Source: Sulfurovum indicum (lineage in GTDB: Bacteria; Campylobacterota; Campylobacteria; Campylobacterales; Sulfurovaceae). From it: 64,000 bases of DNA. Position 1 is the first letter of the stretch. Every line of letters starts with the position of its first letter. The notes under the pieces were generated by a model. That model was given only the letters and a program-made list of their open reading frames with translations, made no database searches and was not told where the DNA came from. Position numbers and translations under genes: made by a program. Below, piece by piece: positions 22,131 to 57,417 of this stretch. The DNA lies in contig NZ_CP063164.1 in the NCBI RefSeq assembly GCF_014931715.1, positions 310,001-374,000 on the forward strand, read 5' to 3'.

Positions 22131-22495
22131 TGGTGGAGGTGAGGGGAATTGAACCCCTGTCCTAAAATAGCTAGGACTATGACTCTACATGCTTAGTCGG
22201 TGTTGATAGATCTCGTTGTGTTTCGTACAACACCCAAAACTACACACAACCAGCCAAAAGATTCGTCTGCAAGCATGGCTTCTTGCAGATATAGTCATCA
22301 GATATGATACCCAAAGATCCGGCTAAGATGACACTCGCCGGCAGGGCAGTCCAAAGTTAGTTAAACTTACGCTACAGCGTAAGCTGGACGATAATCTGTA
22401 TTGTTTGCGTTTGTTCGCGTTGGGCCGCGTAACGGAATTGCCCAGTCCGACATGCACATAGCCCCGACTATTCCAGTCGAAACCAAGTCACCCCC
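22131..22495 (-). ncRNA. ssrA: tmRNA (10Sa RNA)
   Basis: On the minus strand the RNA starts GGGGGTGACTTGGTTTCGAC and ends with a T-arm (GGTTCAATTCC) and CACCTCCACCA. The first and last bases form the 7-bp acceptor stem with one G-U pair. The resume codon GCA (22406-22408) begins the tag ANNTDYRPAYAVA, ending at TAA 22367-22369. It rescues ribosomes stalled on broken mRNAs, with SmpB, and targets the products for proteolysis. CCA is encoded. Length 365 nt. Confidence 0.96.
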
Positions 22496-45574: not shown

Positions 45575-45609
45575 ACACGACCTTTTGTAATTATTTGTGT
45601 TATTTTACA

Positions 45610-45644
45610 CTAATTATTAATTGTTAATTATTAATTATTAATTG
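45610..45644. repeat. Heptad array TTAATTA/TTAATTG
   Basis: Five 7-bp units (TAATTAT, TAATTGT, TAATTAT, TAATTAT, TAATTGT) in the divergent hemB-ribA gap, ending 7 bp before the ribA -10 element. Confidence 0.6.
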
Positions 45645-45650
45645 TTTCTG

Positions 45651-45656
45651 TATAAT
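45651..45656 (+). promoter_or_regulatory. -10 element of ribA placed for a leaderless transcript
   Basis: TATAAT ends 6 nt before the ATG at 45663, the same spacing as at alr. No Shine-Dalgarno sequence is visible before the start. Confidence 0.55.
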
Positions 45657-45662
45657 CTCTTC

Positions 45663-46232
45663 ATGAAAAACATAGAGATATCACAAATCGCTGCTTTGCC
45701 GACCAAATACGGTACCTTCAGGATCCAGGCTTTTAAAGACGGTTTGGGGAAAGAACATCTTGCACTTTTTACCGAAAGCCTCCCGGATACTCCCATAGTC
45801 AGGGTCCATTCCGAGTGTCTGACAGGGGATGCGCTCGGGTCTGTCAAGTGTGACTGCGGAGAACAGCTTCATTTTGCTCTCGAGCTTATAGCCAAAGAGG
45901 GAGGTATGCTCATCTACCACCGCCAGGAAGGAAGGAATATCGGTCTGCTCAACAAGGTAAATGCCTATGCGCTTCAGGATAAAGGCTATAATACTGTCGA
46001 GGCCAATCATCAGCTGGGCTTTTCTGCCGATGAAAGAACCTATGAGATCGTAGAGTTCATTTTAAACCATTTTGATATTAAAAAGCTCAAGTTGCTAACA
46101 AATAATCCAAAAAAGATAGAGAGTCTCGGATCTATAGAGATCGTAGAACGACTTCCTATACAGATTATCCCGAATCCGTATAATAAAGAGTACTTGAAAA
46201 CCAAAAAAGAGCAACTGGGACATTTACTATAG
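45663..46232 (+). CDS. ribA: GTP cyclohydrolase II
   Basis: A 189-residue monofunctional GTP cyclohydrolase II, the first step of riboflavin synthesis. Zinc ligands are in HSECLTGDALGSVKCDCGEQL; the catalytic region is HRQEGRNIGLLNKVNAYALQD, and LLTNNPKKIESL is conserved. The start is ATG 45663, giving MKNIEISQIAALPTKYG. No DHBP synthase domain is attached. Confidence 0.95.
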   Translation: MKNIEISQIAALPTKYGTFRIQAFKDGLGKEHLALFTESLPDTPIVRVHSECLTGDALGSVKCDCGEQLHFALELIAKEGGMLIYHRQEGRNIGLLNKVNAYALQDKGYNTVEANHQLGFSADERTYEIVEFILNHFDIKKLKLLTNNPKKIESLGSIEIVERLPIQIIPNPYNKEYLKTKKEQLGHLL

Positions 46233-46351
46233 ATTAAAAAAAATAATAGTTATAGTTTATATTTTTATATCATTATAGTTTTTATTTTTTTTTATTTATG
46301 ATATAATAACCCCTTCTGCAATATATAAGATTTTTTTTATAAAACAGCATG

Positions 46352-46357
46352 TATAAT
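46352..46357 (+). promoter_or_regulatory. Promoter of the riboswitch-led operon
   Basis: TATAAT in a very AT-rich gap after ribA. The expected transcription start (about 46364) lies roughly 20 nt before the first aptamer. Confidence 0.55.
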
Positions 46358-46383
46358 ATTCATTTTATTGTAAGCAAAGAAAA

Positions 46384-46471
46384 AGCCACACCTGCTGTGA
46401 AGCAGGGCCGGAAAGCCATGGGTCTCTGATATTTTCGCCCGAAAGTAGATGATGAGATCGCCAGGTTGCCT
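46384..46471 (+). promoter_or_regulatory. Class-I cyclic di-GMP (GEMM-like) riboswitch aptamer, copy 1
   Basis: The sequence follows the GEMM-I layout. A first hairpin CCTGCT-GTGA-AGCAGG carries a GNRA tetraloop, followed by GGCCGGAAAGCC (compare ACGCAAAGCC in Vc2). A second stem GGGTCTC pairs with GAGATC and holds an inner hairpin (TATTTTCG/CGAAAGTA), ending GCCAGGTTGCC, the conserved 3' receptor. The core differs from the commonest consensus (CCGG for ACGC), so ligand preference should be tested. Confidence 0.8.
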
Positions 46472-46494
46472 CATATCAATCAATTTTACACAAC

Positions 46495-46580
46495 TGCCAC
46501 ACCTGTTGCGAAGCAGGGCCGGAAAGCCATGGGTCTCTGATATTTTCCCCGAAAGTAGATGATGAGATCGCCAGGTTGCC
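46495..46580 (+). promoter_or_regulatory. Class-I cyclic di-GMP (GEMM-like) riboswitch aptamer, copy 2
   Basis: Nearly identical to copy 1 (about 23 nt apart), with a few substitutions such as CCTGTT-GCGA-AGCAGG and a 1-nt deletion in the inner loop. The compensating loop change keeps a GNRA tetraloop. It ends 28 nt before the GTG of the LamG gene, with AAAGG at 46597-46601 in the short expression platform. No terminator hairpin is seen, so control could be at translation initiation. Confidence 0.8.
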
Positions 46581-46608
46581 TATAGATCAATTTGACAAAG
46601 GTATATCT

Positions 46609-48771
46609 GTGAATGTGCGAATAATCATTTCAATGGTTTTGTTTATAGGCAACTTTCTATATGCTGCACCTGTTGCCGAGTACCGTATGGACGAGTGTTA
46701 CTGGAATGGCAGCATCGGTGAAGTCAATGATAGCAGCGGCAACGGCTATAACGGAACTGCCATTGATGCAACAACTCTCTCTTCGGATGCTATGATTAAC
46801 AGCAGCGGCTATCTGCGCGGGGTGACCAATATGGTTAACCTTGATAAAAATGTAATGGATGGTTTGACTGATTTTACGGTCATGGCATGGGTTAAAGCAC
46901 CAGTGAGCGGATATGAGACGATTTTATCCGCAGCTGATACGGCAGGAGCACTGCCTTATGCCAATGAAGCTCTGCTCTGGTTTCAGGATGCAACGACTGT
47001 TGAAGTCTGGATCAAAGGCGAGAGAAGCAGCGGTATGACAATTCCGGATATCAGCAGTGGATGGCACCAGATCGTCTGGACACGTTCGGGTCGGGACAAC
47101 TGTGTGTATATAGATCCGGACTCAGCTGCCGCGGTACCGGTTTGTACGACACTCCCAGATACGGCAAGCGGAGCATTGACTGTTGCCCAGAATGGTTTGA
47201 AACTGGGTGTCGACCAGGACAGTATTAATGGCGGTTTTGGTCAATATCTTGATGGTTTGCTGGATGAGATAAAGATTTTCAATACAGTTCTGAGTGTAGC
47301 GGAGATGGCAGATATCTACAACAATGAACTCAGCGGCAAAAACTATGACGGTACGGTACGGGAAGCGGCAATCTGCAAGAAATATCCTGTACTTGATTAC
47401 CGGATGGACGAATGTTACTGGTTTGACAATGCAGGCGGTATTACCGAAGATGTGAAAGATTCCGGACTCTATAAGTATAACGCAACGTCCTATAGCAATG
47501 CCCAAACTGATCAAACGAACAGCAAAGTCGGTTTTTCTGGAAGTTTTGATGGTGCTTCTTCTTATTTGGAAGTAAATAACAGTCCGTTATTGAACTTTCA
47601 AGATAAAATGGCTATATCTTTATGGGTGTATCCGAAAAATGATACAGATACGCATCAAATATATATAGAAAAGTATTATAGCAGCAATACACGGTCAGAG
47701 GGTTGGATGGTGTGGAATTATGATGATGGAGGTACTGGTGAATATATTGCCTTTTCTCTTAATATAGATGGTGCTTTTTACAATGCATATATTGCGAAGC
47801 CTGCATCGTGGGAAAGGAGTTGGCACTATATTGCTGCAACATACAGCAATGGAGTAATGGCACTTTATATTGACAGTGACACTCCTGTGGCTACGAAGAG
47901 TATTGCAGGAGAGATAGTGAACTCGACAGAGCCGTTGAGATTAGGTCAGCTATATAATAATTATTGGTTTGACGGGTTATTGGATGAGGTTAAAATATAC
48001 AGTACAGACTTAAACGATAGTGATATTGCCAATATCAGACTAAACGAAGGTAATGGGAAAAACTATGATAGCAGTTTAAGAGAAGATATCGTTTGTGGTG
48101 CTACTATCAGTGCCCATACGTGGGAGCTAGTTGGAATACCTGCAGAGCTTCGGACGAGTACGGAAACTGTAAGCAGTGTGTTTGGGGATGATATGCTCGG
48201 AACATACGGGGTTGACTGGATTGTGTATCGCCGGGATTACAGTGAGAGCAACAATAGCAGCTGGGATACACAGTTGAGTGAAACAGATATTGTTGAGTTT
48301 GGTAAAGGTTATTGGCTGGGCAGCAGAAACAGTGAAAGCTGGAGTGTAAATGACCTGGTAAGCGTTGATTATAATGCCAGCAATGGCGCTTGTACGGCAA
48401 ACCGCTGTGTAGAGGTAGATCTTAAAAGTGTTTCACTGGATGTAGAAAGCGGGGATGATCTGCTTGGAACGGGTGCCCACCGTTACAATATGACAGGCTT
48501 TGTGGGGAAAACCGCAGTAGATTGGGCAGATTGCCGGTTTGTTATTGACGGAGTTGCATACACACCGTCTGCAGCATATGAAGCAGGGTATGTGGAAAAA
48601 CAGATATGGCAGTACAATCCTGGAGACGGCAGTGCAGATGCAAACGGACATACAGCATGTGATGACGTTACTCCGGGCGGATGTAAGCTTGAACCATATA
48701 AAGGTTTCTGGATCAAACTGCACGCTTCTACCAAAAATAAAACAGTAAAACTGTTGATCCCACAGGAGTAA
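46609..48771 (+). CDS. Secreted protein with two LamG/concanavalin-A-like domains
   Basis: A 720-residue protein with a signal peptide (IIISMVLFIGNFLYAAP) followed by APVAEYRMDECYWNG. Two LamG-like units (about 24-255 and 265-490) share the opening YRMDECYW, a DSSGNGYNGT or DSGLYKYNAT turn and the end LDGLLDEIKIFNTVLS or FDGLLDEVKIYSTDLN. A C-terminal region (about 500-720) is of unknown type. Such proteins are often adhesins or matrix components. I start at GTG 46609 because AAAGG is 7 nt upstream; the frame is open further back into the aptamer. It directly follows the tandem riboswitches. Confidence 0.82.
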   Translation: MNVRIIISMVLFIGNFLYAAPVAEYRMDECYWNGSIGEVNDSSGNGYNGTAIDATTLSSDAMINSSGYLRGVTNMVNLDKNVMDGLTDFTVMAWVKAPVSGYETILSAADTAGALPYANEALLWFQDATTVEVWIKGERSSGMTIPDISSGWHQIVWTRSGRDNCVYIDPDSAAAVPVCTTLPDTASGALTVAQNGLKLGVDQDSINGGFGQYLDGLLDEIKIFNTVLSVAEMADIYNNELSGKNYDGTVREAAICKKYPVLDYRMDECYWFDNAGGITEDVKDSGLYKYNATSYSNAQTDQTNSKVGFSGSFDGASSYLEVNNSPLLNFQDKMAISLWVYPKNDTDTHQIYIEKYYSSNTRSEGWMVWNYDDGGTGEYIAFSLNIDGAFYNAYIAKPASWERSWHYIAATYSNGVMALYIDSDTPVATKSIAGEIVNSTEPLRLGQLYNNYWFDGLLDEVKIYSTDLNDSDIANIRLNEGNGKNYDSSLREDIVCGATISAHTWELVGIPAELRTSTETVSSVFGDDMLGTYGVDWIVYRRDYSESNNSSWDTQLSETDIVEFGKGYWLGSRNSESWSVNDLVSVDYNASNGACTANRCVEVDLKSVSLDVESGDDLLGTGAHRYNMTGFVGKTAVDWADCRFVIDGVAYTPSAAYEAGYVEKQIWQYNPGDGSADANGHTACDDVTPGGCKLEPYKGFWIKLHASTKNKTVKLLIPQE

Positions 48772-48774
48772 CAG

Positions 48775-49554
48775 ATGAAAAAAAATATATGGATTTCGAT
48801 CATTCTGGTATTGGGATTGGCAGGGTGTAATACCGATACACAATCTGTAAATGAAGTGAAGAGTATAAGTCTTGATACTGTAGCGGCAGAGACAAAACCG
48901 TCAAACTGGTATATTCGGCTGGTGGCAGAAGATCCTGTCAGAAAAATGAGGACAGGCAGTACACAGCTGGGAGAGCTTGATACAGATGACAATATCTCCA
49001 AGCATACACTGCAGTCACTCAGCCCGTTTGGCGGTACTTATCTTGATATTGTGTTTGTTGACCCTGCCGGTGTAGCTCCGGGCGAGTATAAAACCAGTTT
49101 TCACCATTATCAGGAAAACACGGAAGAGAGTTGGAGATTTACTGTAAAGACTGATGACAGCAATGCCAGGATCACTTTGACATGGTATGGGTTATATATA
49201 CTGGACCCTTATATAGATAACGAAAAGCGTACACGTTATCATGAACATAGATCTATGAACAATCCTCTGCTTAAGCATATGAAACTGGTAGATACTGTAA
49301 GCGGAAAAGAGATGCCTGTTATACTGAACGGCAAAGCACAGGTATATACGTTTACGATGGACGGAATGAATGAAAGAACCTTTCAGTGGATAGTGCAGAC
49401 AGAAGAGGTTAATGTGACTGATATGGGCGGGAGCTACATATTTCTAGATGGCAAAAATGTACAGAAGGATACTCTTCAAGAGCAAAAGAGTGTGACAGAA
49501 AGCAAAAAAGAAAGGTTTGATTTAAGCAGACCTCCGATGAGCAGTGGAGGATAA
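48775..49554 (+). CDS. Predicted lipoprotein of unknown function
   Basis: A 259-residue protein with lipobox LGLAGC at about residues 13-18. The body is beta-rich (for example NWYIRLVAEDPVRKMRTGSTQLGEL and ESWRFTVKTDDSNARITLTWYGLYI), with a charged C-terminus ending LSRPPMSSGG. It starts 3 bp after the LamG stop and ends 2 bp before the next gene, so it is clearly in the same operon. I do not recognise the family. Confidence 0.72.
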   Translation: MKKNIWISIILVLGLAGCNTDTQSVNEVKSISLDTVAAETKPSNWYIRLVAEDPVRKMRTGSTQLGELDTDDNISKHTLQSLSPFGGTYLDIVFVDPAGVAPGEYKTSFHHYQENTEESWRFTVKTDDSNARITLTWYGLYILDPYIDNEKRTRYHEHRSMNNPLLKHMKLVDTVSGKEMPVILNGKAQVYTFTMDGMNERTFQWIVQTEEVNVTDMGGSYIFLDGKNVQKDTLQEQKSVTESKKERFDLSRPPMSSGG

Positions 49555-49556
49555 CA

Positions 49557-49763
49557 GTGCGAGAGAAAAAAAAGCTGCAGAAACCGATAGTATCTGAAAA
49601 AGTAAAAAACAAGAGAAGAGACAGTAGACGCTCTTTTTTAAAAAAAGCAGCCTATGCTGCACCTGCTCTAGTCACCTTGGGACAACTGGCCAGGCCGTCC
49701 GGTGCATATGCTGATGGTTCTACAGGTCCGTCAGGCCCGCCTACTGACGGTTGGACTGTTTGA
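49557..49763 (+). CDS. Small twin-arginine signal peptide protein, possible second peptide substrate
   Basis: A 68-residue protein starting GTG 49557. A basic N-terminus leads to the twin-arginine motif SRRSFLKK (residues 23-30) and a hydrophobic stretch AAYAAPALVTLG, with a probable signal-peptidase site after GAYA (about 52), leaving DGSTGPSGPPTDGWTV. The hydrophobic part also matches the lasso-leader pattern YxxPxLxxxG (Y33, P36, L38, G42), the same pattern as in the precursor at 55681. It could be a Tat-exported peptide, a second precursor or both. Two bases separate it from the lipoprotein gene. Confidence 0.65.
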   Translation: MREKKKLQKPIVSEKVKNKRRDSRRSFLKKAAYAAPALVTLGQLARPSGAYADGSTGPSGPPTDGWTV

Positions 49764-49788
49764 AAACAGTAGTATTATACAGTGAACA

Positions 49789-50670
49789 ATGACTGCATTT
49801 AACCGACATATTGTTTTCCCGGACCGAAAGAGTTTTCAGAACCATGTCTCCCATAACAGGCTTGAAACAATTCATATTATAGAAAAAAAGATCTACCCCC
49901 TTTCACAAAATTTCTTGCTGAAAAGTGACTGGTATTGTATGTCCGGTCGGGAAATAAGATATTATAGCAGCAGACCTTTTGGAGAGGCAGACAGAATGCT
50001 TTCATGGGCTTTGGAGATCAAAGATACGATGATACTGGTATGGGATGCAAAGCAGAGAAATATCCTGTATGTCAGAAAACAAGCCTATACTTTTCAAAGA
50101 TTGCAGTTTTGGGTACTTCATACCTTTATACCTCTTATACTTGAACTTGAACGAAGCTATCATCTTCTTCATGCAGGGGCAGTTGAAATAGCGGGCAAAG
50201 CAGTACTGTTTTCAGCTTTTTCCTATGGTGGGAAATCGACACTGACTGACTTTTTCATGCAAAACGGCCATGCTATGCTCACAGATGACTCTATAGCTAT
50301 AGAGAAACGAAGAGATGGCTATTATGCGACTTCTTCATACCCTTTTCACCGACCTTTCAGAAAAGTAGAGACACTTGGTTATTTTGTTGAAAACTTTGTT
50401 ACTGATCCCAAACCCGTTGATGCAGTCTATCTTCTTGAAAAAAGTGCACCCGATGCCTCTGTAGGGGTAACAGAGATCAAGGGCATAGAGAAGTTCAAGG
50501 CCCTGCATTTCAGCAGCTTTATTGATTTTTCTTTTATGAAACAGGAGCGTTTTTGTTTTTTTACAGAGATGACAAAGCGTGTAGGAGTATATAAAATTAC
50601 TGTTCCATGGGATACTGCAAGGTTACCGGAAGTGTATGAAACGGTCATGGTGCACAGTAGTCAAATATGA
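49789..50670 (+). CDS. HPr-kinase-like protein (lasso-peptide kinase type), paralogue 1
   Basis: A 293-residue protein with an HprK-like P-loop domain: HLLHAGAVEIAGKAVLFSAFSYGGKSTLTDFFMQNGHAMLTDDSIAIE holds the GGKST loop and the following acidic motif. The N-terminal part (about 1-120) is a divergent domain of unknown type. Family knowledge: HprK-like kinases in lasso clusters (paeninodin type) phosphorylate the peptide. A paralogue is encoded at 52923 with the same layout (LHAGAVEVEEKSILFMANSFGGKST). Starts 25 bp after the Tat peptide gene. Confidence 0.82.
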   Translation: MTAFNRHIVFPDRKSFQNHVSHNRLETIHIIEKKIYPLSQNFLLKSDWYCMSGREIRYYSSRPFGEADRMLSWALEIKDTMILVWDAKQRNILYVRKQAYTFQRLQFWVLHTFIPLILELERSYHLLHAGAVEIAGKAVLFSAFSYGGKSTLTDFFMQNGHAMLTDDSIAIEKRRDGYYATSSYPFHRPFRKVETLGYFVENFVTDPKPVDAVYLLEKSAPDASVGVTEIKGIEKFKALHFSSFIDFSFMKQERFCFFTEMTKRVGVYKITVPWDTARLPEVYETVMVHSSQI

Positions 50671-50721
50671 AGTATCAAGGTCTTTTATCTTTATGCAATA
50701 TAATAAAGAGACCAGACTAAT

Positions 50722-52488
50722 ATGACAAGGCACTATACATTTAAAGTACTGTATGAGCAGATTAACTCCCAGAAAAAAGATTTTTGGCGTACCAATATTT
50801 TTGGAACATTGGCAACATTGCTGCTGCTGCCCATTCCAATGCTCATTCCTCTGCTTGTTGATGAAGTACTGCTTGAACACTCCGGAAAGATGACAGAGGT
50901 GATCTCGAGAGTCTATGGAGAGAGTGAAGTATGGGTTTATGTTCTCATTATTCTAAGTACAGTGCTGACTTTGCGGATCATTGCATTTTTTTTCAATAAT
51001 AAAAAAATATTTTATGCTACAAAAATTACCCAAAAGATAAGCTATCTGCTCCGTCACCGGATTTTACATCATCTTGAACGTGTTTCGATTTCTGAGTATG
51101 AAACACTCAAATCTGGTGGTATTGCTTCCAAAACAGTACAGGATGTTGAGAGTATCAGCCGTTTTGCCGGACAAGTGGTGATGATTGCGTTGAGTGCGCT
51201 ACTTATGTTGGCAGGTATTGCTGCTGTGATGTTCTGGATGAACTGGGCACTTGCACTGCTGGTATTTATACTCAACCCACTGTTTTTTGGATTTTCAAAG
51301 ATTCTGGGACGTAAAACCGGAGAGTTGCTGCGTCGTCAACATGAAGCCTATGAACTTTACAATGAACTGCTTAATGAGACACTGGAACTTTTTATTCAGG
51401 TACGTGCGAGTAATCAGGAGAGGAGTTTTTTCGGTATACTTCAAAAGCGGGCAAAAGAGATAGAAAAAACTTCGCTTGATTACGGGTATAAAGCGTCTGT
51501 GGCACACAGCTCCTCCACTCTGCTGATCAATACGGCGATTGATATTTTCAGAGTACTTGGTGTTACTGCTGTAGCCTATTCGGATCTGACGATCGGGATG
51601 ATGATAGCTTTTCTTTTTTATCTTTCAACACTGGTGCAGCCGGTTCAGCAGCTGGTGGGTCTGGTCATCGCCTATCAGAGTACAAAGCCGGCATTCGAGC
51701 GTATCAATACACTGCTTTCATTTTCTCAGGAGCCACATTATCCACATGAATCTGATCCGTTTGATAACAAAAAAACGACTTCAGTTTCATTAAATAATGT
51801 CAGCTTTGCTTATAGAAACGGCAGAAGAGTGCTGCATAATATTACTCTAAAGGCCAATGCGGGAGAAAAGATCGCTCTTATCGGTTCAAGCGGTAGCGGT
51901 AAAACAACTGTTGCCCAGCTTTTGGTTGGTTTTTACCCTGTGCATTCTGGAGAAATACTCTATGGCAATACCCCGATAGAGAAGATAGGTCTTCCGGTTG
52001 TACGTAAGAATGTGGCTTTAATGCTGCAGTATGCGCTTTTTTTCAATGATACTATTCGAATGAACCTTGCTCTTTCAGAGGTAAAGAGCGATAGAGAAAT
52101 TTATGAGGCATTGGGAGCAGCACAGCTTGAAGCCTTTGTCAGGGGGTTGGATGAGGGACTCGATACGCTTATCGGCAAAAATGGTATAAAACTTTCGGGA
52201 GGACAGCGTCAACGTCTTGCAATTGCACGTCTTATCCTCTCAAATCCAAAGGTTGTTATTTTTGATGAAGCAACATCTGCTCTGGACAATGCAACGGAGT
52301 TTCATCTCTACAAGACGCTGGCACCGTTTCTCAAAGGGCGTACGGTCATTATTATTGCACATCGGATCTCAACCATAAAACAGGCTGATCGTATCTACCT
52401 GATAGATGAGGGGAGGGTTACAGCTGAGGGGAATTATGACAGTTTGCAAAAACAAGGATTGATAAAAGAGGATTTTGATGTTGCGTAA
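50722..52488 (+). CDS. ABC transporter, fused membrane and ATPase domains (peptide exporter)
   Basis: A 588-residue half-transporter with six TM helices in the N-terminal 320 residues and an ATPase domain with Walker A IGSSGSGKTT, signature LSGGQRQR, Walker B VVIFDEATSALD and switch His in IIIAHRIST. There is no N-terminal C39 peptidase, as expected for a lasso-peptide D protein where the leader is removed by B2. It would export the mature peptide. The B2 gene begins inside its 3' end. Confidence 0.9.
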   Translation: MTRHYTFKVLYEQINSQKKDFWRTNIFGTLATLLLLPIPMLIPLLVDEVLLEHSGKMTEVISRVYGESEVWVYVLIILSTVLTLRIIAFFFNNKKIFYATKITQKISYLLRHRILHHLERVSISEYETLKSGGIASKTVQDVESISRFAGQVVMIALSALLMLAGIAAVMFWMNWALALLVFILNPLFFGFSKILGRKTGELLRRQHEAYELYNELLNETLELFIQVRASNQERSFFGILQKRAKEIEKTSLDYGYKASVAHSSSTLLINTAIDIFRVLGVTAVAYSDLTIGMMIAFLFYLSTLVQPVQQLVGLVIAYQSTKPAFERINTLLSFSQEPHYPHESDPFDNKKTTSVSLNNVSFAYRNGRRVLHNITLKANAGEKIALIGSSGSGKTTVAQLLVGFYPVHSGEILYGNTPIEKIGLPVVRKNVALMLQYALFFNDTIRMNLALSEVKSDREIYEALGAAQLEAFVRGLDEGLDTLIGKNGIKLSGGQRQRLAIARLILSNPKVVIFDEATSALDNATEFHLYKTLAPFLKGRTVIIIAHRISTIKQADRIYLIDEGRVTAEGNYDSLQKQGLIKEDFDVA

Positions 52489-52936
52489 AATAAAAAAGTT
52501 CTTCAAACTCTCAGCACACGAGCGAAATCTTTTTATGGAAGCCTATTATACATTGGGCATAATGCGTGCCGCCATTTTGAGCATATCCTTTAAACGATTG
52601 GTCCGACCATTGGAGCATTGGAGTAAAAAAGGTGAGTCGATAGAGCTTAGTGAAGAAGAGAAAAAAATGGCACTTGCCATAGGCAAAGCTATTAAACAGG
52701 CAGCAGCTCATACACCATGGGAAAGCGCCTGTCTGGTACAGGCTTTGACAGCACAGAAGATGTTGAAAAAACGTGGAATTTCCGGAGTGTTTTATCTTGG
52801 CGTTGCCAGAGATGAAGAGAAGATGAAAGCCCATGCATGGTCACAGTGCGGGGATATACTTATTACTGGTGGCAGCGGACATGGAGTATTTACTGTCGTT
52901 TCGGTGTTTGAATGGGGAAAGTATGATCGCATATAA
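52478..52936 (+). CDS. Lasso-peptide biosynthesis B2 protein (leader peptidase)
   Basis: A 152-residue transglutaminase-fold protease. The catalytic Cys is in TPWESACLVQALTAQKMLKKRGI, the His in KAHAWSQCGDILI and the Asp follows at GD, the pattern of B2 proteins (PF13471). It would cleave the leader from the precursor. The start is ATG 52478 with AAAAGAGGA upstream; the TTG at 52475 is unlikely. It overlaps the ABC gene by 11 bp and the second kinase gene by 14 bp. Confidence 0.9.
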   Translation: MLRKIKKFFKLSAHERNLFMEAYYTLGIMRAAILSISFKRLVRPLEHWSKKGESIELSEEEKKMALAIGKAIKQAAAHTPWESACLVQALTAQKMLKKRGISGVFYLGVARDEEKMKAHAWSQCGDILITGGSGHGVFTVVSVFEWGKYDRI

Positions 52937-53813
52937 TCATTATATTGAATTTATCCCGGCGTTGGAAAGTGGCAAAAAGATTGAGGGAGCTTTTGTTGAT
53001 GTGGTTAGGGTAAAAGCAAGTCCACTTGACAAACTACCGGAAGTATTTCGTTTTCACATTTCATTTTATAGCAATCAGGGAAGAGAACTGAAGCTACTTT
53101 CAGATAGAGAGTTTGCACCTGCAGTACAAAATCAACGTTGGGCTTTTGATGTAAAAGATGTAGTAACTTTTGTGTGGTACAGCGGAACTTTGGAGGTAGA
53201 GTATATATCTCATGAAAACTTTACGGAAGAGCTGCTGGAGTACTGGTGCATGCATCTTATGCTTCCTCTATTTTTTACCATTGAAGAGACGTATGATTTT
53301 TTACATGCGGGTGCGGTTGAGGTAGAGGAAAAGTCTATTCTATTTATGGCAAATTCATTTGGCGGGAAATCAACATTAACAGATTTTTTTTTAAAAAAAG
53401 GGCATACACTTATATCAGATGATAAAGTAGGAATATTTAAAAAGCAAGAAGGTTTTTTGTTAGTACCTTCTCATCCCCATCATCGTCCATATCGTGAACG
53501 GGAAACATTAGGTTGTTTTTTTGCTAATACATTAACAGGAGTAAAAACAATAGACATAATATATGACCTTGAACGTACTGCAGCAGATGCTCCTATTGAA
53601 ATTATTGAACTGAATGGAGTTGACAAATTCCGTTCATTGCGTTTTGGCAGTGAGATTAATCTTTATTTTTTAAAAGAAAAACGGTTTATGTTTTTAGCAC
53701 ATATGGCTCAATATGTATCTGTTTTCAAAATTAAGATCCCCTGGGATATGAATCGATTAAGTGAGGTATATGAGACTATTTGTCTGCATACGAAAAATAT
53801 TGGTTGCAAATAA
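52923..53813 (+). CDS. HPr-kinase-like protein (lasso-peptide kinase type), paralogue 2
   Basis: A 296-residue paralogue of the kinase at 49789: the same N-terminal domain followed by YDFLHAGAVEVEEKSILFMANSFGGKSTLTDFFLKKGHTLISDDKVGI and the shared HRPYRERETLGCFF segment. The start is ATG 52923 with GGGGAAA before it. Two kinases around one B2/exporter core suggest two phosphorylation steps or two substrates (inference). The second half of the gene is more AT-rich than the first kinase. Confidence 0.82.
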   Translation: MIAYNHYIEFIPALESGKKIEGAFVDVVRVKASPLDKLPEVFRFHISFYSNQGRELKLLSDREFAPAVQNQRWAFDVKDVVTFVWYSGTLEVEYISHENFTEELLEYWCMHLMLPLFFTIEETYDFLHAGAVEVEEKSILFMANSFGGKSTLTDFFLKKGHTLISDDKVGIFKKQEGFLLVPSHPHHRPYRERETLGCFFANTLTGVKTIDIIYDLERTAADAPIEIIELNGVDKFRSLRFGSEINLYFLKEKRFMFLAHMAQYVSVFKIKIPWDMNRLSEVYETICLHTKNIGCK

Positions 53814-53821
53814 GAGGGAGT

Positions 53822-55684
53822 ATGAATTATTTTACAGGAGTCATAGATTTTGGTCATTTAAATGTGCAAGAACAGGACTTGCATACCATGATGGAGGCAG
53901 TAACAGTTTACGACTTAAAAGAGTATAAAGTTGTTACTGAAAAAAATACGGGTTTTATTATTTATTCACATGGTCGGGTACAAAACGGCCTGTCCGGATA
54001 TTATAAATCCCTAAAAGATGAAATTTATATTTTTGCTGATGCAAGAATTTATAATGCAGGTGATGTTGGCAAGAAGCTGGGGCTTGTTAATGAAAATATA
54101 AGTGTTGCAGAGTTGATTTATGAGTCATATATGAAATGGGGTGAAGAGTGTCTTGAGTATTTTGCCGGTGATTTTGCCTTCTCTTTATGGGATAAGCGAA
54201 ATAAAACTCTTTTTTGTGCAAGAGACCATATCGGAATGCGACAGATTTTTTATTTTAGACAGAATAACTATTTTATTGTTTCATCAGACCTGGATGCGAT
54301 TCTCGCATCCAAGAATGTAGAAGTGAATGTGAATATGTATGCTCTCCAAAATTTTATTGATGGGTATCCTGTATCATACCACGATACTTTTTATGAAAAT
54401 GTTTTTCGTATTCCTCCAGGATATATGTTAACGATTAAAAATAATACAGTGAGTGTAAAGAGGTACTGGTACCCGCATAAGATAAAACAAGACAGGTCGA
54501 TATTGTTTGAAGAGGCTGCCAAAAAGTTTAAAAAACTTTTTATACAAGCAGTGCAAAGTAGAGTTCCAACTCATACAAAAATTGGTGCAGAGGTTAGTGG
54601 TGGTCTTGATTCTTCATCTGTTTATGCAGTTATAAAAAAGTATAGGAAAGATGTGGATCTGTCATCTTTTTCTCTTAGATTTGGAGATGATGTGTGCGAT
54701 GAGGGGGAATATATTGAAACTTTAGTAGCCGGCAATGGAGCAAAACATTTTGAGTCCAGAGTGGATGTAAGGGATAGTCAAGAGGGCTATACGCTTTCAA
54801 ATATTTATCAAGTAAACCCACATTGGCCTATTTTTTCTACTTATACAATGTCAATGCCATTATTGAAACAAATGGCTGATAGTAATATTGCAATTGGTTT
54901 GACAGGACAGGGAGGGGATCAAGCTACTGTTGGGAACTGGGGGCATTTGGCAGATATGTTTTTTACATTAAAATGGATTACGCTTTTTCAAACGATACAA
55001 ATATATAGAGATAAAAAGTCCACACTACGGAAATTATTTCTACCATATATTTTTTCAAATAAACAGAAGGCTTTAATTAAAAAAATATTTCTTCCTTTTA
55101 AAAAAGAGTATCATTTAAAAAAAGTTGCACAGTATACAGATGATACATTCAGGTTTTATAGCGTATCTCAAAAAATAAATATAGAACAGTTTACAGGACA
55201 CGGACATGCGAGATATGTAGATAACAACCCATATTTGATTGCTGAAAAAATCTATGGTATAGAGTTCCGGCATCCGTTTTTTGATGTACGACTTGTAGAG
55301 TTTATGTTCAGTCTGCCTTGGGATTACAGTTATAACTATACAAACAATAGAATTAATTTAAGAGTGTTATTTAGGGAGGCTATGGTAGGTATTTTACCGG
55401 AGAAGATTAGAAAACGGCGTGATAAAGCAGAGTTTTCACAAGTAATCTATGGAGAGTTGGAAAGTCTGGATCTTGATTCTTTGCTAAATAACGCTTACTT
55501 GATACAAAAAAAGATTGTGAAAAGAAGTGACGTTGAGGATCTTGTGTCAGGGTATAAGAATGATAAAAAAAAGCTTTTCAGACTCTGGAGGTTCGTTAAT
55601 GCTGAATTGTTTTATAAAAATGTTTCCAAAACACAGAAGTATGGTATAATTATAAACACAAGCAGAGAGGGGGAGGATGTATGA
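53822..55684 (+). CDS. Asparagine-synthetase-like lasso-peptide cyclase (C protein)
   Basis: A 620-residue AsnB homologue. The N-terminal glutaminase-like domain starts MNYFTGVIDF and lacks the catalytic Cys2 of true asparagine synthetase, as lasso cyclases do. The C-terminal ATP-pyrophosphatase domain has EVSGGLDSSSVYAV. It would adenylate the Asp side chain of the peptide and close the macrolactam. The start is ATG 53822 with AAGAGGGAG upstream. The gene is AT-rich compared with its surroundings. Its stop overlaps the precursor ATG (ATGA). Confidence 0.88.
   Translation: MNYFTGVIDFGHLNVQEQDLHTMMEAVTVYDLKEYKVVTEKNTGFIIYSHGRVQNGLSGYYKSLKDEIYIFADARIYNAGDVGKKLGLVNENISVAELIYESYMKWGEECLEYFAGDFAFSLWDKRNKTLFCARDHIGMRQIFYFRQNNYFIVSSDLDAILASKNVEVNVNMYALQNFIDGYPVSYHDTFYENVFRIPPGYMLTIKNNTVSVKRYWYPHKIKQDRSILFEEAAKKFKKLFIQAVQSRVPTHTKIGAEVSGGLDSSSVYAVIKKYRKDVDLSSFSLRFGDDVCDEGEYIETLVAGNGAKHFESRVDVRDSQEGYTLSNIYQVNPHWPIFSTYTMSMPLLKQMADSNIAIGLTGQGGDQATVGNWGHLADMFFTLKWITLFQTIQIYRDKKSTLRKLFLPYIFSNKQKALIKKIFLPFKKEYHLKKVAQYTDDTFRFYSVSQKINIEQFTGHGHARYVDNNPYLIAEKIYGIEFRHPFFDVRLVEFMFSLPWDYSYNYTNNRINLRVLFREAMVGILPEKIRKRRDKAEFSQVIYGELESLDLDSLLNNAYLIQKKIVKRSDVEDLVSGYKNDKKKLFRLWRFVNAELFYKNVSKTQKYGIIINTSREGEDV
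55642..55650 (+). promoter_or_regulatory. Internal extended -10 promoter for the precursor gene
   Basis: TGGTATAAT, an extended -10 element, lies inside the 3' end of the cyclase gene and would start a transcript about 24 nt before the precursor ATG. A strong purine-rich ribosome-binding site (GAGAGGGGGAGG) follows. This would let the peptide gene be expressed above its enzymes. Confidence 0.5.
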
Positions 55685-55812
55685 AAAAAGAATATGCTCA
55701 GCCCAAATTAATAGTGATGGGTTCAATGGTAAAAATCACACAAGGCGGTGTAAGTCCTACAAGCACACTTGATAACAGTAACAGTTCCTTTGATGCATCT
55801 AGCACGAAATGA
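55681..55812 (+). CDS. Lasso-peptide precursor (A peptide)
   Basis: A 43-residue peptide too short for ordinary gene callers. Leader: MKKEYAQPKLIVMGSMVKITQ contains YxxPxLxxxG (Y5, P8, L10, G14), the binding motif for the B1/RRE protein, and Thr20 near the cleavage site. If the core starts at Gly23 it reads GVSPTSTLD, placing Asp31 at ring position 9, with a tail NSNSSFDASSTK. If it starts at Gly22, Asp is at position 10, which no known lasso uses. In the first case Thr is at -3, not the usual -2. The Ser/Thr-rich tail gives sites for the kinases. The ATG overlaps the cyclase stop. Confidence 0.85.
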   Translation: MKKEYAQPKLIVMGSMVKITQGGVSPTSTLDNSNSSFDASSTK

Positions 55813-56276
55813 TGAAGAGTAGGAAGTTTAAACAGAAGAGGATGTGGTGCTCCGGACAACTCCGGTAATCTTTCTGTTTTCTGATCTCTTCCAAAGGAGA
55901 GGTTGAGTTGTAGGAACCGGTTTTAATCAGGAGTCCTCTTTTTGGATGGGTATCAAGTATATGTTAAAAAACCCGAATTTAAAATTAAAGTGCAAATATC
56001 TCTAAAAATGCTATTCAGGTCCCCTGCGGGTCTTTGAGTTTTGAGCTCATAGGGGAATCATGCAAAAGTATCTATTCGGTCTTTAAGAACACTTCCCCTG
56101 GAGATTGAATGAATGGATGAAGAGATAGGGAAAACTATTTTATGCTACACTCACAATAAACAAGTTTCAAAGGAACTTTCAAGTGAAGCAGCGTAAAATT
56201 TAATTTGCGAGCTATATCCGTGATAACGGGTTTCAATCTGTTTTGTAAAATAAGCTGAGAAGGAAGACGGAAAATA
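55813..56276 (+). other. Structured gap between precursor and B1 gene
   Basis: 464 bp without a convincing ORF. Just after the precursor, AAACAGAAGA (55830-55839) pairs with TCTTTCTGTTT (about 55869-55879), enclosing the hairpin CCGGA-CAAC-TCCGG (55852-55865), with T-rich sequence after it: a possible weak terminator that lets some readthrough reach B1. Further hairpins are possible (CCAAA...TTTGG around 55891-55947; CCCCT...AGGGG around 56023-56055; CCGT-GATA-ACGG at about 56219-56230). AAGGA precedes B1. Confidence 0.4.
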
Positions 56277-56564
56277 ATGGACCTTAGTCAAAAAGTAAAA
56301 TTCCCGGATACTGTTTTTGCTCAGGAAGTAGATGGAGAGATGGTACTGCTTGATATGAATACCGAAAACTATTTCGGACTGGATGAGGTGGGTACATCTA
56401 TCTGGCAGGCGATAGAAGAGAATGAGGGGGAGTTGCAGAAGGTCTTCAGAGCACTTCTTGATCAGTATGATGTGGAAGAAGATGTATTGAAAAAAGATCT
56501 CTCTGTCTTTGTAGATAAGCTGGCGGAGAGCGGACTGGTGACAGTGCTGCGTAATGAATGTTGA
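56277..56564 (+). CDS. PqqD-like RRE protein (lasso-peptide B1)
   Basis: A 95-residue PqqD-family protein: KVKFPDTVFAQEVDGEMVLLDMNTENYFGLDEVGTSIWQAI is the winged-helix RiPP recognition element, with VLKKDLSVFVDKLAESGLV completing the fold. In lasso pathways B1 binds the leader and presents it to B2 and C. It is separated from the precursor by a structured gap and is followed by rsmG. Confidence 0.9.
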   Translation: MDLSQKVKFPDTVFAQEVDGEMVLLDMNTENYFGLDEVGTSIWQAIEENEGELQKVFRALLDQYDVEEDVLKKDLSVFVDKLAESGLVTVLRNEC

Positions 56565-56582
56565 ATTGTAAATGGTGAATGA
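56560..56582. repeat. Short heptad-like array before rsmG
   Basis: GAATTGT-AAATGGT-GAATGAA, 7-bp periodic, between the B1 stop and rsmG. Confidence 0.45.
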
Positions 56583-57173
56583 ATGGATTTACGAACTTGT
56601 TTGAGGCAGGAAGGTATTGAGCTTCCTATAGAGATCATTGAAAAACTGGAACATTTTACTCTGTTGTTGCAAGAGTGGAACAGGGTGCACAATCTGACCG
56701 GGGCCAAAACAGTGGAAGCGATCTACGGGAACATCATAGATTCACTTTATCCCCTGGTGTTTATTGAAAGACCAAAAAGCCTGCTTGATGTTGGAACAGG
56801 AGCAGGCTTCCCCGGTTTTGTACTGGCTGCAGCGCTGCCTGAAACGGAAGTGGTTCTGGCTGAACCGTTGAAGAAACGGGTTGCTTTTTTGAAGTATGCT
56901 GCAATAGATATTGGATTGGAGAATGTGAAGGTAGAAGCAAAAAGGGTTGAAGGGGTAGAGCATACACCGTTTGATCTCATCTCTTCACGGGCTGTGACCA
57001 ATACAAAACTGCTTCTCGAGCTGACAGAGAATATCAGTGATAGTCATACAAATTATCTTTTTTACAAAGGAAGCCGTGTTTTTGAAGAGATTGAAGCGGT
57101 ACAACATCAGTTAGATTATGATATAGTACAGAAAAATCAGAGAAACTATCTCTATATCAGGGGTCGGGTATGA
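56583..57173 (+). CDS. rsmG: 16S rRNA (guanine527-N7)-methyltransferase
   Basis: A 196-residue GidB-family enzyme: [31 protein letters not shown], the SAM loop [16 protein letters not shown] and [16 protein letters not shown] are diagnostic. It makes m7G527 in 16S rRNA. It overlaps the next gene by ATGA. It is not functionally part of the lasso locus. Confidence 0.95.
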
Positions 57174-57382
57174 TCTTGAAGCTTATCATCTTTGCGATCG
57201 CGGGGCTGCTAATTTATAAATTCTTTGGGGGCAAACTGCCTGCATTGAGAAAGAAAAGTACTTCCAAAGAGAAGAAACCTGATGGAGATACTCTTGTAGA
57301 GTGCAGTCAGTGCGGTACATACGTAACGGTCAAAGAGGCTACACTAATCAATGGCAAATACTGCTGTGATGAATGTGTATAA
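57170..57382 (+). CDS. Small protein with TM helix and zinc ribbon (PP0621-like)
   Basis: A 70-residue protein: an N-terminal TM helix ([17 protein letters not shown]), a basic linker, then a possible zinc ribbon with CSQCG and CCDEC. It resembles the PP0621 family of unknown function. Translationally coupled to rsmG. Confidence 0.75.
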
Positions 57383-57417
57383 AAAAGTAAACTGAATACT
57401 TTTATCAAGGAGCGAAA

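Follow-up and report, generated by a model that had tools for sequence, protein, structure and literature searches.

Cyclic diguanosine monophosphate (c-di-GMP) is a second messenger whose best-known roles are in biofilm and motility. Its riboswitches are among the most prominent families found in tandem arrangement (PMC12452182), and expression of the surface adhesin gbpA is promoted by Vc1 of Vibrio cholerae (PMC4744006). For the pilM riboswitch of Geobacter (GEMM-Ib), which binds cyclic GMP-AMP (cGAMP), an ON mechanism was described (PMC9262584). On the biosynthetic side, lasso-peptide clusters with split B1 and B2 proteins and an HPrK-like kinase are the closest system. Both kinds of element occur in the stretch analysed here, a window of 64,000 nucleotides from Sulfurovum indicum (NZ_CP063164.1, positions 310,001 to 374,000), where two aptamers in series precede the genes of a surface module and of a lasso cassette (Table 1). 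Comparison with relatives makes it probable that a tandem class-I c-di-GMP riboswitch heads this combined operon. It would be a member of a Sulfurovum subgroup which recurs before lasso genes, LamG genes and genes of peptides with a twin-arginine translocation (Tat) signal and a motif for RiPP recognition elements (RRE; RiPP, ribosomally synthesized and post-translationally modified peptide).

The aptamers were called by cmscan against Rfam, with cut-offs of 35 bits for RF01051 and 59 bits for RF03167 (c-di-GMP-I-GGC). Both copies exceeded the RF01051 cut-off (58.3 and 52.4 bits). Tandem class-I aptamers at this operon head had been proposed in the original prediction, and its coordinates proved accurate to a few bases. 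The RF03167 score of copy 2, 49.3 bits, was below the cut-off of that model. Between the cores of copies 1 and 2, 84 of 87 positions are identical. The key positions are G20 (46385 in copy 1, 46496 in copy 2), A24C (46389, 46500), A43C (46408, 46519), A47 (46412, 46523) and C92 (46469, 46579). Tetraloops of the GNRA type, GUGA and GCGA, are retained in both copies, as had been predicted.

Fold, GNRA tetraloops, G20, A47, C92 and support by covariation are shared with Vc1 and Vc2 of RF01051. For the P2/P3 fold, 98.3% of the cells were paired among 25 hits and nine pairs were changed on both sides (0 of 500 shuffles). In contrast to Vc1 and Vc2, the window aptamers have A24C with A43C and a C21-G46 core, stand in tandem, precede lasso-peptide targets and show a proposed direct pairing of their tail with the Shine-Dalgarno (SD) region. 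P1 differs as well: this helix is weak in copy 1 and broken in copy 2, and it is absent from the consensus fold computed for the Sulfurovum hits. With known tandem c-di-GMP riboswitches the window has the two serial aptamers in common, but the pair is a recent local duplication with no expression platform in between, and the closest relative of the module, genome G136 (locus L075), has a single copy. The window genome (2.2 Mb, single contig) contains four class-I aptamers at three loci and 16 GGDEF domains. In the family, about 634 class-I hits were found in 106 of 175 genomes, with up to 21 per genome.

By an alignment of the hits of the genus and by a collection of 77 distinct cores, the window copies were placed in a subgroup with A24 replaced by C and A43 replaced by C or U. 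Both exchanges were coupled in 34 of 34 cores; the other 43 cores have A24 with A43, rarely with G43. This subgroup is undescribed. A pattern search detected it at 36 places in 26 genomes, about 6% of the family aptamers (approximately 36 of 634), and the reversed pattern, used as control, gave no hit. About 23 of these 36 places are lasso, LamG or RRE-leader-peptide loci or loci of p68, the short Tat-signal peptide of the surface module. A subgroup confined to lasso and LamG loci was considered and rejected: genes following the other places include those for an outer-membrane protein, a membrane protein and an AGWLSDRW-type protein. The start codon follows subgroup aptamers at a median distance of 38 nt, against 92 nt in the comparison. 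The canonical sample used for comparison (adhesins, TolC, regulators) is biased, because it was chosen by score.

Leaders of many canonical Sulfurovum aptamers (L007, L013, L017, L021, L026) carry ATAGTG...CACTATT-TTTTT, an arrangement resembling a terminator that overlaps the aptamer tail. Canonical and subgroup aptamers may therefore differ in their platform.

Lasso loci were counted by their B2 peptidase, with 29 matches in the family, 24 of them of Sulfurovum type (E < 1e-40). The relatives are mostly metagenome bins, many with short contigs. At 12 of the 24 loci, window included, the operon of the lasso genes or of the precursor is headed by an aptamer. In nine of these 12 cases it is a subgroup aptamer, against about 36 of 634 overall (binomial 1e-9, shared descent ignored). 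The aptamer stands directly ahead of the ATP-binding cassette (ABC) exporter gene in G067, G082, G097, G137 and G138, and distances of 32-80 nt to the start of this gene were measured in L091, L092, L096, L099 and L103. In Sulfurovum sp. AR (NZ_AJLE01000006.1) the distance is about 32 nt. In G076 and G139 it lies 172 and 370 nt ahead of the ABC gene, with a small open reading frame for a membrane protein in between. Via LamG the aptamer is reached in G069 and G065, and via p68 in G079, where the cluster is apparently divided between two contigs. The genes behind the tandem aptamers of G117 encode a surface protein, the lasso precursor and the cyclase. A second aptamer of G139, canonical class-I (L101 8276-8539), is located immediately upstream of a lasso-type precursor (MKQIKEFEKKSYRQPQLKIIG...).

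The B2 profile also found aptamer-free relatives in GTDB genomes of Desulfocapsa, Desulfobulbaceae and Gammaproteobacteria. No aptamer was detected in the nine lasso loci outside Campylobacterota that were scanned with Rfam, and a custom aptamer model run over all 41 GTDB lasso loci revealed no similar link outside Campylobacterota. Because aptamers are missing at the Desulfocapsa, Desulfobulbaceae and Gammaproteobacteria loci, the link between aptamer and lasso genes looks specific to the Sulfurovum lineage. It had been proposed before that c-di-GMP may set the expression of both the LamG protein and the lasso pathway. This gained strong comparative support from the relatives with aptamers directly before ABC or precursor genes; for the lasso genes of the window itself, such control is what we infer.

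Further aptamers were observed near lasso genes. Canonical class-I aptamers also occur as pairs with a spacing of 148-150 bp near lasso clusters in Sulfurovum sp. AR and two relatives (L096 4694-4921, L103 2478-2705, L091 4888-5116); these pairs are divergent from PqqD, and no clear gene lies behind them. Subgroup aptamers in L095 (1098-1376) and L153 (1660-1924) are located immediately 5' of peptides of 56-59 amino acids (aa) near lasso cyclases. These peptides have W(V/K)xPxLSxx leaders (TKGG/TKNG) and may be RiPP precursors controlled in the same way. On a Helicobacteraceae metagenome contig (L178 4168-4323), two class-I aptamers, one weak and one strong, follow in series about 0.8 kb after lasso B2.

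Judged from gene order, the operon head is a separate conserved module, mostly found without lasso genes, a point missed by the original prediction. The module (LamG, lipoprotein, p68, HPrK1, PqqD) was reached through homologues of the lipoprotein. Lasso genes are mostly absent from it, as in L076 and L084-L088, and PqqD belongs to the lasso-less module as well. L075 is the closest relative, with a LamG protein 85% identical to that of the window, and its lasso remains are only fragments matching the cyclase. The same gene order was found behind an aptamer in L075, L076, L077, L079 and L106, and LamG homologues stand behind the aptamer in relatives too. Loci with p68 as first gene are headed by an aptamer in L116, L117, L125, L127, L129, L130, L133 and L135. 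The Tat signal of the window p68 overlaps YAAPALVTLG. This fits YxxPxLxxxG, the motif by which the PqqD-type RRE proteins of lasso biosynthesis recognise leaders, and the motif is kept in p68 relatives.

The p68 family (window 49557-49763; the eight p68-first loci above; L145-L154) comprises peptides of 55-80 aa that combine the Tat motif RRxFLKK with an RRE-like YxxPxLxxLG; GPPS..W is frequent in their short tail. Usual neighbours are an HPrK-like kinase, a LamG-like protein, a lipoprotein and PqqD. By these traits, the family is possibly an undescribed system of modified or exported peptides.

As expression platform of the window, a pairing of the aptamer tail with the region before LamG is proposed, in which the duplex covers the SD sequence AAAGG (46597-46601). 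At 18 module and lasso loci the final aptamer bases (YYRCCNN, C92 included) are complementary to the SD region. Such pairs are UUGCCU/AGGCAA (L106, L115), UUGCC/GGCAA (L092), ACCUA/UAGGU (L091, L096) and GCCUAU/AUAGGC (L079). The mean duplex energy at the 18 loci was -6.3 kcal/mol, compared with -3.0 kcal/mol for shuffled SD regions (0 of 300 as low) and -5.5 kcal/mol with partners swapped between loci (3 of 2000 as low). No excess was detected in the canonical or other-target aptamer sets; as one canonical locus has no SD stretch, only the comparison of that set with its controls is usable. The predicted accessibility of the SD in the group was 0.17 with the aptamer versus 0.51 with the downstream part folded alone, the latter representing the ligand-bound state. 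Complementarity and covariation of the tail with the SD suggest a translational ON switch: C92 cannot hold ligand and SD together, and the ribosome site should thus become accessible when c-di-GMP binds. The logic resembles that of pilM, where the same C (C75) is sequestered in the alternative, OFF fold (PMC9262584). However, the alternative pairing of pilM builds a terminator, whereas that proposed for the window would hide the ribosome site. Control of a surface protein is the likeness to Vc1 and gbpA (PMC4744006).

A TATAAT hexamer (46352-46357) and the GTG-started LamG gene (46609) flank the aptamer pair, as had been described, and in relatives -10-like sequences (GATATAAT/GATATACT) occur a short way upstream of the aptamer. 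The gaps after LamG are 3 bp (to the lipoprotein), 2 bp (to p68) and 25 bp (to HPrK1), again as read before, and 51 bp separate HPrK1 from the ABC gene. Scanning the + strand from 46583 to the ABC gene gave no terminator-like hairpin. Outside coding regions such a hairpin first occurs at 55852, weak and just behind the lasso precursor, in line with the earlier statement that none is visible before the lasso genes end; the hairpin scan gave only a moderate excess over shuffled sequence, and promoter-like sites were at chance level.

According to the mechanism proposed here, transcription would start just 5' of aptamer 1. In the absence of c-di-GMP the 3' tail of the aptamer, C92 included, would pair with the SD of the first gene. 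Bound c-di-GMP would take up C92 and release the ribosome site, so that the surface module would be on at high c-di-GMP. In the window genome, read-through into the lasso genes would follow. As the switch works at the ribosome site of the first gene, control of these genes would need co-transcription with, in addition, coupling or polarity. Two serial aptamers would make the response steeper.

Several alternatives were weighed against this mechanism. Since the genus is rich in aptamers, with the hits per genome and in the family given above, their association with lasso genes could be a matter of chance. From the aptamer densities of the genomes concerned, 0.018 aptamers within 400 nt were expected by position (0.18 if only intergenic DNA is considered), compared with 11-12 observed in 24 loci. 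The lack of aptamers at the Desulfocapsa, Desulfobulbaceae and Gammaproteobacteria loci also points to a lineage-specific link, and we regard coincidence as extremely improbable. A change of ligand in the A24C/A43Y subgroup, for instance to cGAMP or another dinucleotide, had been proposed from the core CCGG. As a sequence reading the core was accurate: C46G is compensated by G21C, which gives the C21-G46 flip, and A43C is accompanied by A24C. The perfect co-occurrence of the exchanges at 24 and 43 could indicate a new specificity, and a variant Rfam model gave the best score for copy 1. However, the consensus of this 'GGC' model has, by our reading, G at position 47, and both copies have A, so the RF03167 label is unfit for ligand prediction. 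Both copies retain G20, A47 and C92, which are invariant across 35 aligned covariance-model hits of the genus; the 35 hits were used for G20 because the pattern behind the 77 cores itself fixes this base. Aptamers for cGAMP have A at position 20 (G20A), and the Geobacter pilM aptamer has the C-G pair as well (C15-G40) (PMC6274999). The C21-G46 pair, G21-C46 in Vc2, is fixed throughout the genus set and is thus a likeness to pilM, from which the window differs by G at position 20. Positions 24 and 43 are apparently not among the ligand contacts (PMC6274999; numbering mapped by us). The proposal of an altered ligand was not upheld; it appears very unlikely, and c-di-GMP is the predicted ligand of both copies.

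Other points concern direction and reach of the switch and weigh against the mechanism proposed here. The SD of the window is predicted to be hidden either way (accessibility 0.08 with and 0.13 without the aptamer), so that the ON direction is derived from the group. An OFF switch, with the lasso peptide made at low c-di-GMP, would agree with this hidden SD, and C. difficile Cd1 is cited as an OFF switch of class I in PMC4744006. In contrast, in the group the ligand is bound by the same strand, the tail, that pairs and covaries with the SD, and with C92 sequestered the switch would follow the ON logic known from pilM (PMC9262584); we infer the ON direction and consider an OFF switch unlikely. 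As to reach, LamG is the first target of a translational switch, which does not alone extend to distal genes, and the lasso ABC gene has its own start 51 bp past HPrK1. Half of the lasso loci are without aptamer, most loci of the lipoprotein module are without lasso genes, and the loci are related by descent, so the counts are not independent and tests assuming independence overstate the significance. The riboswitch might therefore govern only LamG, lipoprotein, p68 and kinase, with the lasso cassette as an inserted passenger under its own promoter and regulation; the lasso-less modules of L076 and L084-L088, like the decayed cyclase remnants in L075, would fit this. Against a passenger stand the same aptamer subgroup directly before the lasso ABC gene in five relatives, an aptamer before the precursor in a sixth, the short gaps and the lack of a visible terminator ahead of the lasso genes. 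We hold the passenger explanation to be rather unlikely, though somewhat less so than the OFF switch. Control of the lasso genes by c-di-GMP, judged from the relatives, is likely.

The sensors before lasso genes of relatives suggest that peptide production is tied to the signal governing surface and biofilm life. Tentatively, evolution in Sulfurovum may have made the A24C/A43C-U subgroup a translational ON switch that serves mostly peptide-modification operons. Lasso peptides and the p68 peptides, the latter as a new class with Tat signal and RRE motif, would then be made only at high c-di-GMP, in the surface-attached state. No report joining lasso peptides with a c-di-GMP riboswitch was found among open-licence papers. 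To our knowledge, this would be the first riboswitch-controlled lasso-peptide pathway. If the mechanism is correct, c-di-GMP gates ribosomal peptide natural products directly through an RNA switch, which would explain the timing of expression of cryptic lasso clusters, offer a simple trigger in raising c-di-GMP and hint that lasso peptides act at surfaces. A testable aptamer subgroup is defined by these results, together with a concrete model for translation control by class-I switches.

By its gene content the lasso cassette (ABC, B2, kinase, cyclase, precursor) is genuine and inserted in the conserved surface module. Like the clusters with split B1/B2 and HPrK-like kinase, the window has A, B1, B2, C, an ABC exporter and a kinase. 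It differs from them in the position of the cassette within a LamG/lipoprotein/Tat-peptide operon behind a riboswitch, and its PqqD (B1) apparently serves the surface module too. For the cyclase the lasso-specific model NF033535 was the best match, although the score of 280.8 bits is less than the 525 bits set as cut-off. The start of HPrK-like kinase 2 was placed by homologues, which align from residue 28-31. Between precursor A and PqqD/B1 lies a gap holding weak terminator-like hairpins. A typical lasso precursor has Thr at leader position -2, Gly1 and an Asp or Glu at core positions 7-9. In the precursor core of the window, after the leader end TQ, the acceptor Asp is at position 10, or at 9 if the second Gly starts the core. 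An unusual ring size or leader cut is possible from this spacing. The precursor homologue of L093 has Asp at position 8.

Table 1 Features of the aptamer-headed operon in the window
Feature	Position	Strand	Evidence and remarks
TATAAT -10 hexamer	46352..46357	+	direct reading; ~19 nt ahead of aptamer 1
c-di-GMP-I aptamer copy 1	46376..46474	+	RF03167 66.3 bits, RF01051 58.3 bits
c-di-GMP-I aptamer copy 2	46486..46583	+	RF01051 52.4 bits; 96.6% identical to copy 1
Proposed expression platform	46577..46603	+	tail UGCCU 46577-46581 pairs AGGUA 46599-46603; duplex -5.6 kcal/mol
LamG (Laminin_G_3) surface protein, 720 aa, GTG start	46609..48771	+	PF13385 7e-34
Conserved lipoprotein, 259 aa	48775..49554	+	homologues in 32/175 family genomes
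p68, short peptide, 68 aa, Tat signal and YxxPxLxxxG motif	49557..49763	+	TIGR01409 19.5 bits, cut-off 16.7
HPrK-like kinase 1, surface module	49789..50670	+	Hpr_kinase_C 5e-4; kept in module
Lasso-cluster ABC exporter	50722..52488	+	ABC_membrane and ABC_tran
Lasso B2 leader peptidase	52475..52936	+	NF033537 90.8 bits, cut-off 33
HPrK-like kinase 2, lasso cassette	52923..53813	+	Hpr_kinase_C 5.6e-6; open frame from 52833
Lasso cyclase C, Asn-synthase type	53822..55684	+	Asn_synthase PF00733 7e-32; open frame from 53780
Lasso precursor A, 43 aa	55681..55812	+	YAQPKLIVMG leader; NF033528 25.9 bits, cut-off 33
Terminator-like hairpin, weak	55852..55865	+	first outside coding region; just 3' of lasso precursor
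PqqD-type leader-binding protein B1	56277..56564	+	PF05402 1e-16, 61.4 bits, cut-off 23.4

For the lipoprotein no family match was found by profile search, and its AlphaFold model (pLDDT, predicted local distance difference test, 72) had no PDB match at E<0.001. The interval from hemB/ribA-type to rsmG/rhomboid genes (window 45600-57400; L149, L150, L152, L164) seems to be a Sulfurovum exchange site for PqqD-linked peptide cassettes. Elsewhere in the window, a transfer-messenger RNA was detected on the minus strand (22131-22495, 149 bits).

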